64,000 nt of DNA from Salinigranum rubrum (GTDB lineage: Archaea > Halobacteriota > Halobacteria > Halobacteriales > Haloferacaceae): positions 310,001 to 374,000 of the forward strand of contig NZ_CP026309.1 of NCBI RefSeq assembly GCF_002906575.1, in the 5' to 3' direction. Under the pieces are notes generated by a model. That model saw only the letters and a program-made list of their open reading frames with translations. It did not search any database and was not told the origin of the DNA. Shown piece after piece: positions 54,877 through 57,568 of this stretch. How positions within the stretch are numbered: position 1 is the stretch's first letter; the number at the start of each line of letters is the position of its first letter. The position numbers were made by a program, and so were the translations under genes.

Positions 54877-55848
54877 ATGACGTACTACGTCGGTGTCGAC
54901 CTGGGGGCGACGAACGTCAGGGCTGTCGTCGCGGACGCCGAGGGGACCATCATCGGCAGCAGCAAACGTGGCACGCCGCGCGGCCCGACGGGAATCGCCA
55001 TCACCGAAGCCGTGCTCGAGGTCACGCGCGCCGCCTGCGACGAGGCCGGTATCGACCCGGAGGCGGCCGTCGCGGCGGGCATCGGCTCTATCGGCCCGCT
55101 CGATCTCGCCGAGGGTGCCGTCGAGAACCCGGCGAACCTCCCCGACACCATCGACCGCATCCCGCTCACCGGTCCGCTCTCCGTCCTGCTCGACACCGAC
55201 CGCGTCTTCTTGCACAACGACACGGCCGCGGGCGTCATCGGCGAGCGCTTCCACTCCGAGCGCAACCCCGACGACGTCGTCTACATCACCATCTCGACCG
55301 GCATCGGCGCCGGCGTCTGCATCGACGGCCACGTCGTCTCGGGGTGGGACGGCAACGCCGGCGAGGTCGGCCACATGACGGTCGACCCGCACGGCTTCAT
55401 GACGTGTGGCTGTGGGCACGACGGTCACTGGGAGGGCTACTGCTCGGGCAAGAACATCCCGCGCTACGCCTACGAACTGTTCCAGGAGGACGCCAGCGTC
55501 GAGACCGACCTCCCCGTCGACGACCCCGATTTCTCCGCCGCCGACGTCTTCGAACACGCCGGCGAGGACGAGTTCGCCGACTACGTCATCGACCAGCTCT
55601 GCCACTGGAACGCGATGGGCGTCGCCAACGTCATCCACGCGTACGCCCCCATCGTCATCTACATCGGCGGCGCCGTCGCGCTCCGAAACCCCGACCACGT
55701 CGTCGACCCCATCCGCGAGCGCGTCGACGACATGGTGATGGTCAACGTCCCCGACATCCAACTCACGGCGCTGGGCGACGAAGTCGTGGTGAAGGGGGCC
55801 GTCGCGAGCGCGATGACCGGAGGAACGGGTGACCGTGCCAGACTGTAG
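54877..55848 (+). CDS. ROK-family glucokinase
   Basis: A 323-residue sugar kinase. The ATP motif is VGVDLGATNVRAVVAD; the substrate loop is HNDTAAGVIGE with the catalytic aspartate; ISTGIGAGVCIDG and GHMTVDPHG precede the ROK zinc site. The zinc motif reads CGCGHDGHWE, so the usual third cysteine is a histidine; zinc could still bind. Glucokinase is the likeliest activity in haloarchaea, other hexoses possible. The last codons, GGTGDRARL-stop, belong to the first unit of a tandem array that continues downstream. Confidence 0.9.
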   Translation: MTYYVGVDLGATNVRAVVADAEGTIIGSSKRGTPRGPTGIAITEAVLEVTRAACDEAGIDPEAAVAAGIGSIGPLDLAEGAVENPANLPDTIDRIPLTGPLSVLLDTDRVFLHNDTAAGVIGERFHSERNPDDVVYITISTGIGAGVCIDGHVVSGWDGNAGEVGHMTVDPHGFMTCGCGHDGHWEGYCSGKNIPRYAYELFQEDASVETDLPVDDPDFSAADVFEHAGEDEFADYVIDQLCHWNAMGVANVIHAYAPIVIYIGGAVALRNPDHVVDPIRERVDDMVMVNVPDIQLTALGDEVVVKGAVASAMTGGTGDRARL

Positions 55849-56030
55849 GTCTGGCAGCGTCGCGCGTGGCTTCGCAGGTGGGACCGGCGACCGGGCTCGT
55901 CTGTAGGACGAGCCACCTCGCCGGGCGCACCGAAGGAGGTACAGGCGACCGAGCGCGGCTGTGAGGCCGCGCTGATTTCGACTGAAGCCCCGCAGGCGGT
56001 ACGGTGACCCCACCGGGCTGTAACGGACGT
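55801..56030 (+). repeat. 58-bp tandem array copying the glucokinase C-terminal codons
   Basis: Unit 1 is the end of the kinase gene (55801-55848). Units 2 and 3 (55859-55906 and 55917-55964) repeat the last 15 codons and stop: VA----GGTGDRARL* and LA----GGTGDRARL*, with almost every variable base in the last ten codons synonymous. Unit 4 (about 55991-56023) is decayed (GGxGDPTGL*, one base short). The spacing is exactly 58 bases, so units 2 and 3 are in different reading frames from the gene. In units 1-3 the stop codon lies in the loop of a hairpin. Confidence 0.8.
55837..55855 (+). other. Hairpin around the glucokinase stop codon
   Basis: GCCAGAC and GTCTGGC pair perfectly with loop TGTAG, which contains the stop TAG. 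Equivalent perfect stems with different sequence lie at 55894-55914 (GGCTCGTC/GACGAGCC, loop TGTAG) and 55952-55973 (AGCGCGGC/GCCGCGCT, loop TGTGAG). Confidence 0.75.
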
Positions 56031-56077: not shown

Positions 56078-57568
56078 ATGCGCAGGCGTAGCGTCCTCCG
56101 GGGAACCGCGGCGCTCGTCGGGGCGTCGGCGCTCGCCTCCTCCGCACGCGCCCACGAGGGCGAGGGGAGCGACGGGACCGTCTCGGGCGGGTCGAGCGAC
56201 CGGTACGCGCCCCTCGGATACGTCGACGTTCCCGGCGCAAACGAAGCGGTCGTCGGCGACGAGGAGACGGTGTACGTCGCGACCGGCGACGGCTACGCGA
56301 CTGTCGACGTGAGCGATCCGACCGCTCCGCGGGTGCTGGCGCGGCGGACGGGACTTCGGAGCGACGCGGAGAACGGCCCGCTCGTGAACGTTCAGGACGT
56401 GAAAGTCGACGGCGAGACGCTCATCGTCGCGGGGCCGGCCCACCCGCGGCGGAACGCCCTCTCGGGCTTCGTCGTCGTCGACGTCTCCGACCCCACCTCC
56501 CCCACCGAACGCGGCTTCTTCGAGACCGACTACCCCATCCACAACTGCGACGTCGCCGACGGCCGGGCGTACCTCACCGGGAACGACGGCTCACGAAACC
56601 CCCTCGTCGTCGTCGACGTCTCCGACCCCACCGACCCCGTCGAACTCGGTCGGTGGTCCCTCCTCGACGCCGACGCCCGGTGGGAGAGCGTGAACGCGAA
56701 CCGTCGGTCGCTCCACGACGTGACGGTCCGCGACGGCGTCGCCGTCTGTGCGCTGTGGGACGCCGGCACCTGGCTGGTCGACGTCGCCGACCCGACGGCG
56801 ATGACCGCGCTGGGGAGCGTCGATGCGCCCGCCCCCGACCAACTCGATGCGGGCCCCCGACCGGCCCTCACGCCCCCGGGGAATCACCACTACGCGACGC
56901 GTTCGGGCGACCTCCTCGCCGTCGGAAAGGAGTCGTTCGGCGTCCGCATCGACGAGGACGGCGACGGGCGCTCGGATTCCCTCGTCGGCGGACCGAGCGG
57001 CGTCGACCTCTGGGACGTCTCGGACCTCGAAGCCCCCGAGCGACTGTCGACCGTTCCCCCGCCCGTCAGCGACGACTCCACCCTCGGGGGAACGTGGACG
57101 ACGGCGCACAACCTCGACATCGAGAACGAGACGCTCTACACGTCGTGGTACCGTGGCGGCGTGAAGCGACACGACGTCTCCAACCCGCTCACTCCCACCG
57201 AAGAGTCGTGGTGGCTCGCGCCCGACGAGACGAGCTTCTGGACGGCACGGGCAGTCACGACCGGATTCTTCGTCGCGTCGAGCCGCGGGGTCGAGGACGT
57301 CCCCGGCCGGCTCTACACGTTCCCCGACCGACCCGGTGAGGGGTCGTCGGGGGCCGCGCTCGGGTCGGACGACAGCACGACCGAGGCGACGGCGACGGAC
57401 ACCGCGTCGACGCGGGCCGACCGGACAGACCCGACGAATGCGACGGACGCGAGCGGTGGGGACACCGGACCGGAGTCGACCGTCTCCGCTCCCGGGTTCG
57501 GCGTCGGAGCGGGACTAGCGGCGCTGGCTGGTGGTGCTTGGTGGCTGCGGCGACACACGGACGACTGA
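56078..57568 (+). CDS. Tat-exported LVIVD-repeat propeller protein with PGF-CTERM-like end
   Basis: A 496-residue protein with a twin-arginine signal (MRRRSVLRGTAALVGASALA). The body holds repeated VVDVSDPTxP motifs (TVDVSDPTAPRVL, VVVDVSDPTSPTERG, VVVDVSDPTDPVELG, LVDVADPTAM), typical LVIVD propeller blades. A Thr/Asp/Ser linker precedes APGFGVGAGLAALAGGAWWLRR, which resembles the PGF-CTERM sorting signal cut by archaeosortase with lipid attachment. Surface-anchored protein; ligand unknown. Confidence 0.85.
   Translation: MRRRSVLRGTAALVGASALASSARAHEGEGSDGTVSGGSSDRYAPLGYVDVPGANEAVVGDEETVYVATGDGYATVDVSDPTAPRVLARRTGLRSDAENGPLVNVQDVKVDGETLIVAGPAHPRRNALSGFVVVDVSDPTSPTERGFFETDYPIHNCDVADGRAYLTGNDGSRNPLVVVDVSDPTDPVELGRWSLLDADARWESVNANRRSLHDVTVRDGVAVCALWDAGTWLVDVADPTAMTALGSVDAPAPDQLDAGPRPALTPPGNHHYATRSGDLLAVGKESFGVRIDEDGDGRSDSLVGGPSGVDLWDVSDLEAPERLSTVPPPVSDDSTLGGTWTTAHNLDIENETLYTSWYRGGVKRHDVSNPLTPTEESWWLAPDETSFWTARAVTTGFFVASSRGVEDVPGRLYTFPDRPGEGSSGAALGSDDSTTEATATDTASTRADRTDPTNATDASGGDTGPESTVSAPGFGVGAGLAALAGGAWWLRRHTDD

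Follow-up and report, generated by a model that had tools for sequence, protein, structure and literature searches.

Stop codons associated with hairpins, palindromic units near genes and duplicated coding ends have each been described before. In phage T4 gene 60 and in the mitochondrial byp elements, a stop codon lies in or near a hairpin that is flanked by repeated codons. Rickettsia palindromic elements and REP sequences are short palindromic units located at or in genes. Elements that integrate at the 3' ends of genes restore the gene end with synonymous differences and place these synonymous tails ahead of the displaced old end. Small inverted triplications, or tandem-inversion duplications, have a direct-inverted-direct order, form hairpins and arise by replication template switching; they occur as rare new mutations, with a median size of 148/160/148 bp in yeast, and in E. 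coli polymerase slippage over the hairpin removes them (PMC13334657). Template switching can also create and maintain hairpins in RNA genes, where one stem is copied from the opposite arm and compensatory changes result (PMC8794818).

The locus described here lies in a window of 64,000 nucleotides from the haloarchaeon Salinigranum rubrum (NZ_CP026309.1, positions 310,001 to 374,000). The array behind its ROK-family kinase gene shares the direct-inverted-direct order and the hairpins of small inverted triplications, and template switching and slippage may likewise have shaped it. However, its arms are only about 25-30 nucleotides long, such arrays occur at the ends of two genes and are tandemly repeated, and they are maintained across genera, show covariation and retain conservation at the codon level. 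Unlike a template-switch hairpin, which is a single hairpin of an RNA gene, one arm here is a coding end and each 3' arm tracks its own tail only. In contrast to Rickettsia palindromic elements and REP sequences, the units are not dispersed; they occupy one locus per gene and derive from that gene's own tail. The features of the array, all on the forward strand, are as follows.

54877-55848, forward: ROK-family kinase gene (glucokinase-like), 323 amino acids, C-terminus GGTGDRARL-stop (Pfam ROK PF00480, E = 3.5e-45)
55819-55848, forward: tail copy 1, the real gene end, GGA GGA ACG GGT GAC CGT GCC AGA CTG TAG; 5' arm and loop of hairpin 1
55849-55876, forward: 3' arm of hairpin 1, complement of tail copy 1, terminal junction CGCA/G; fold -34.5 kcal/mol
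55877-55906, forward: tail copy 2, GGT GGG ACC GGC GAC CGG GCT CGT CTG TAG, in a frame that differs from that of the gene
55907-55934, forward: 3' arm of hairpin 2, terminal junction CGAA/G; fold -40.7 kcal/mol
55935-55964, forward: tail copy 3, GGA GGT ACA GGC GAC CGA GCG CGG CTG TGA
55965-55994, forward: 3' arm of hairpin 3, terminal junction CGCA/G; fold -30.5 kcal/mol
55995-56023, forward: terminal decayed half-unit, tail copy 4, with a 1-nucleotide deletion and non-synonymous changes and without a 3' arm of its own

The top matches of the kinase in an NCBIfam search were glucokinases, every one of them under its curated cut-off, and its nearest named relative is the protein of Salinigranum salinum (91% identity). 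The next gene (56078-57568, forward strand) encodes a product that matches the LVIVD repeat (Pfam PF08309), and an open reading frame whose start resembles that of this gene also comes after the ROK gene in several relatives.

A sequence-only reading of the window had reported a 58-base repeat behind the kinase gene in which copies of the last codons differ only synonymously. This repeat is real: tail copies 1, 2 and 3 begin at 55819, 55877 and 55935, in steps of 58 nucleotides, and a decayed copy follows at 55995. Copy 2 differs from copy 1 at 8 of 30 bases and copy 3 at 9 of 30, a stop-codon swap included, and all of these differences (8/8 and 9/9) are synonymous. Among the swaps are AGA versus CGT or CGG and TAG versus TGA. 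Neither Tandem Repeats Finder nor a second repeat finder detected the array, because the copies are too diverged.

This pattern extends well beyond the window. When internal copies (n = 10) were compared with copy 1 of the same genome, 52 synonymous changes and no others were counted, although a random change is expected to be synonymous at a fraction of only 0.317 (p about 1e-26, a value that is indicative only, as copies within a genus are not independent). In terminal copies, most of which have no 3' arm of their own, synonymous changes number 127 and other changes 41. Non-synonymous change is absent from 9 of the 25, and about two thirds have non-synonymous changes or a lost stop. In assigning copies to these classes, two false chain extensions (L025 and L120) were corrected by hand. 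The earlier suggestion that selection of a coding type acts on copies that cannot be read from the gene is upheld, and distal copies decay. Synonymous changes in non-coding copies also affect first codon positions (CGC to AGG in L031, CTG to TTG in L137 and AGA to CGN in the window), and TAA, TAG and TGA are all used as stops, with no TGG among intact copies. A bound sequence would not account for the first-base changes in L031 and L137 or for the use of all three stop codons.

Tail-like sequences were sought with a pattern that allowed at most one mismatch in 392 genomes of the order. The pattern matched in 10 genomes and its reversed control in none, and the matches inspected fall at the 3' end of the ROK orthologue. 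Among 92 distinct orthologous gene ends, near-matches 3' of the stop numbered 39 in the forward orientation, 0 in reversed DNA and 1 on the other strand, and arrays are present in about 30 of the 92. Within the family they are carried by Salinigranum, Haloferax, Halogeometricum, Halogranum rubrum and further genera. Outside it they occur in Halorarius litoreus, Halalkalicoccus paucihalophilus (much decayed) and two metagenome-assembled archaea, with lineage-specific tails such as DRSRMRR-stop; the second copy of Halorarius is its own lineage's tail, unchanged, 59 nucleotides on. Steps of 58 (16 cases) and 59 (19) dominate over 57 (2) and 55 (1), and the junctions are CGCAG (17), CGCTG (8), CGTAG (3) and CGAAG (3). 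Relatives free of arrays exist for the ROK gene as well as for a second gene described below. Mis-assembly, which had been named as an alternative, is not a reasonable explanation because independent genomes of many species carry diverged arrays.

In Haloferax loci, including that of H. marisrubri (L026), a conserved block (GTGCACCCG...GGTGCACGGGCGTTCCACCGGAAG) common to the species is found about 200 nucleotides past the ROK stop, 3' of the array. It follows a TTATAA-like promoter and resembles a structured RNA or a short gene.

Each unit of 58-59 nucleotides forms a single long hairpin in which the last nine kinase codons and the stop supply the 5' arm and loop, followed by a complementary 3' arm and a CGNAG junction. 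The stop codon sits in the loop of every unit. A palindromic element had been proposed before, and each unit does form a hairpin with its own downstream half, although the hairpin nature of the units and the complement between copies had been overlooked. The whole window array folds at -127.8 kcal/mol compared with -106.6 (sd 4.7) for shuffled sequences (z = -4.5). Tail copy 1 pairs with its own 3' half at -34.5 kcal/mol and with the other two at -16.3 and -13.0; likewise, all three tails pair best with their own 3' half and far worse with those of their neighbours. A more fitting description of the array is a series of tandem stop hairpins, each with an interchangeable gene end.

Covariation was assessed with an alignment of 31 units and a 19-pair structure, a set composed mostly of first units on which the test therefore leans. 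In this alignment, 87% of cells are paired, and 98 cells are changed on both sides compared with 35 in shuffles. The covariation score is 0.434 versus 0.146 for shuffled alignments (0/500 reached it) and at most 0.104 for slid controls. Compensatory changes in excess of both kinds of control are as expected of a structured cis-acting RNA. Pairs that change on both sides fall at third codon positions (columns 6, 9, 12, 18, 21 and 24) and also at first codon positions (columns 19, 22 and 25, which correspond to Ser/Ala/Thr, Arg and Leu). Coding rules and pairing rules hold jointly, even in copies that are unreadable from the gene. Moreover, 3' halves pair with their own tails at -33.2 kcal/mol versus -24.0 for swapped partners (0/2000), whereas 3' arms pair with the following tail at -24.5 versus -23.5 for swapped partners, which is hardly above chance (p 0.03). 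That 3' arms match their own tail and hardly the next one suggests that the hairpin is kept, rather than that palindromes are repaired in general. A stop hairpin maintained in this way likely has a function, and that function probably lies in the RNA.

These pairing data bear on a reading in which the units are a plain minisatellite, made of neutral slippage copies whose covariation comes from template-switch repair of imperfect palindromes, with no selection. Recent tandem duplications do occur (H. marinum and L132), template switching can mend stems (PMC8794818), and, as in minisatellite concerted evolution, copies share lineage-specific changes. However, the copies here stay synonymously diverged and swap the coding role, and neutrality fits poorly with a ratio of 52:0 in copies that do not code. 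Repair would also be expected to match every 3' arm to the tail that comes next, across a 3-nucleotide loop, a pairing that the swapped-partner comparison does not support, and the CCG of the tail is unpaired, facing a mostly non-complementary triplet in the unit alignment. We consider this origin quite unlikely.

Another reading of the same data is a structured element of RNA or DNA at the end of the gene, for instance a series of 3' hairpins that acts in termination, 3'-end processing or mRNA stability. Its downstream copies would be retained for their structure and a bound sequence, and their codon-like look would come from copy 1. Strong covariation, the conserved CGNAG junctions and period, the pairing of 3' arms with their own tail only, and a non-coding terminal copy that is nearly unchanged in Haloferax all agree with such an element, and a hairpin within coding DNA of Haloferax volcanii causes termination of about 59% of reporter transcripts (PMC7237163). 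First-base synonymous changes and the free exchange of TAA, TAG and TGA are unexpected of a bound sequence, however, and terminal copies mostly have no 3' arm. The array is absent in many orthologues, and an Rfam search of it matched no family (best matches E>1, far under gathering scores). Overall, we regard an element of this kind as a rather doubtful explanation for the arrays.

Because the stop codon is enclosed by a strong hairpin and out-of-frame copies show codon-level selection, ribosome bypassing or another form of recoding was also weighed. Some ribosomes would pass over the stop hairpin and terminate on the next copy, so that downstream copies would be translated and spacing would be free of multiples of three; periods of 55-60 and 67 indeed disregard the reading frame, and each copy is preceded by an in-frame codon, mostly Ala. 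The arrangement recalls T4 gene 60 and the byp elements in its stop codon in or near a hairpin and its repeated codons on both sides, but take-off and landing codons are not matched here (ACC precedes copy 1, and GCA, GCT, GAA or GTA the later copies) and the stop is not one that must be bypassed. Furthermore, about two thirds of terminal copies have non-synonymous changes or lost stops, the resulting protein would be nearly identical, and we know of no archaeal case of bypassing. Recoding is accordingly given very little weight.

Two simpler translational ideas were rejected. In-frame readthrough or frameshifting into the next copy conflicts with spacings of 55, 57, 58, 59 or 67 nucleotides. 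GTG start codons after an SD-like GGAGG, feeding the next unit, are contradicted by the loss of the GTG in unit 2 (GGCGACC) and by spacing whose frame varies.

Comparison between species reveals that the copies trade places with real gene ends. Window copy 2 matches the gene end of Salinigranum salinum (L020) at 27 of 30 positions. In Haloferax massiliensis (L033), the first copy is of a type that we call X and the second of a type that we call Y; the latter departs from the gene end of the same genome at 7 bases. The gene end of H. prahovense (L031), its copy 1, is of type Y and agrees with copy 2 of H. massiliensis at 30/30 positions, and its copy 2 is X-like. In both Salinigranum and Haloferax, a spare copy in one species is the coding end in another. 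The earlier proposal that the units are captured or supplied tails stands to the extent that single units match the coding ends of orthologues, whereas donation of tails to other genes is unsupported. A dispersed element that donates its tail was rejected on the result of a covariance-model search of 12 genomes, in which clear matches occur only in the ROK array and the best outsider has E = 0.0018; the small number of genomes matched by the tail pattern, 10 of 392, also speaks against it.

Signs of turnover are found in several genomes. Haloferax units also occur as X/Y mosaics (L032, L122 and copy 2 of L033), a Gly-to-Ala change is present in all H. profundi copies, and in L132 a recent 58-bp duplication has left copies 1 and 2 with the same Leu-to-Met change. 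The four near-identical 59-nucleotide units of H. marinum are a recent expansion. On the other hand, the Haloferax terminal copy X, which has no 3' arm, shows only 2 variable sites over five species, both synonymous, although the adjoining flank is variable.

Foreign-looking synonymous tails ahead of a displaced old end, together with terminal half-units that resemble displaced ends, recall the footprint of an element that attached at the gene 3' end, rebuilt this end from a synonymous tail of its own and subsequently lost the rest of its sequence. In the loci inspected, however, there is no integrase or longer insert between copies. Unlike the situation at 3'-end-integrated elements, the step is almost always 58 or 59 nucleotides, and the arms vary from unit to unit where a recombinase would need fixed ones. 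A second gene with the same geometry and a different sequence also speaks against such a footprint, which we therefore hold to be very improbable.

This second gene, which was named ribosomal protein L10e from its sequence and without a family search, came to light when 400 kb of H. marinum were scanned without regard to gene identity; its tail ERGEELLVA-stop is repeated there at 67 nucleotides. Across 30 genomes, L10e has two further arrays with periods of 59 (L211, junction TCGCA/G) and 57 nucleotides (L206). Their hairpins are similar in geometry to those of the ROK arrays, with the 67-nucleotide case being weak (z = -1.5). A further pattern search of 392 genomes added a case from another family (L280), in which the copy lies 58 nucleotides on in a different frame, all 5 differences over RGEELLVS-stop are synonymous (0 non-synonymous), and a hairpin of -37 kcal/mol spans 69 nucleotides. 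In these four genomes the arrays are built from L10e's own tail; the copies are nearly identical in L211, L206 and L190, which we call young cases. This recurrence of the architecture at L10e, built there from a different tail, points to a process at gene ends and not to one mobile tail. A scan for this architecture in 2.46 Mb from five genomes (16,385 ORF ends) was passed by ROK and L10e only, and no shuffled control had z <= -3.

Other repeats at ORF ends were also encountered. Plain tandem duplications of 28-46 nucleotides with no obvious inverted arm are present at L266:1356, L274:4782, L267:19758 and L050:6760 (all forward strand), which indicates that gene-end duplication also arises without hairpins. 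In H. marinum, a 104-nucleotide tandem repeat near position 3738 of L184 (forward strand), outside the period searched for arrays, has a recurring ORF end (LFPSRFLRT-stop), and perfect tandem repeats with 19- and 26-nucleotide units lie just behind ORF ends at L186:8108 and L189:17390, respectively.

We propose, with a probability of about 0.5, that the array lines up interchangeable gene ends, that its units are gained, lost and shuffled, and that its copies are filtered whenever they serve as the gene end. For the birth of an array, the mechanism and rate of its turnover, the source of new units and the role of the hairpin, we infer the following course. The first unit would be born by template switching at the gene end, giving tail, inverted copy and tail as a small inverted triplication; this order, with a hairpin between direct copies, is present at both ROK and L10e. 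Birth would have pushed the old gene end downstream, leaving the half-unit that closes most arrays. Later units may be added, lost or shuffled, either through slippage over the hairpin or when copies or strains recombine unequally. Loss of unit 1 would make the next copy the gene end and leave the gene whole, and copies would differ only synonymously because this promotion exposes each one to selection on the protein. Distal copies that are no longer promoted would decay. Selection for the stop hairpin would make each 3' arm track its own tail, and mixing of strains or unequal recombination between them could produce the strong divergence of neighbouring copies.

Several observations count against turnover of interchangeable ends. 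Differences at most synonymous sites imply that copies are old, and promotion must purge bad copies without homogenising the array; frequent promotion of this kind needs strain mixing or very strong second-order selection. The near-unchanged, armless copy X of Haloferax hints at a direct function. The recurrence of the 58/59 period and the CGNAG junction across families is not explained by turnover alone, and it is odd for a general mutational process that just two genes among 16,385 ORF ends are affected. A related reading holds that the copies are spare gene ends: selection would keep several complete, interchangeable C-terminal tails, with their stop hairpins, behind an important gene, since unit loss, or ribosome skipping, regularly activates a downstream copy. 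We advance this only tentatively, as a less probable account than the row of interchangeable ends.

Inverted triplications and compensating hairpins are already known; what is new is that codon-conserved arrays last at two gene ends. A search of the open-access literature found no account of such arrays, in agreement with the sequence-only reading, which knew of no described system of this form. Here, codon-level selection is seen in DNA that is unreadable from the preceding gene and is coupled to a co-varying hairpin at the stop codon; this pattern occurs at two unrelated genes in several archaeal families. If the arrays do turn over as interchangeable gene ends, then short inverted triplications, which are commonly regarded as unstable accidents, would have turned into stable structures through which genes can exchange their ends. 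If instead the RNA or recoding reading is true, they would be a new kind of stop-codon element.
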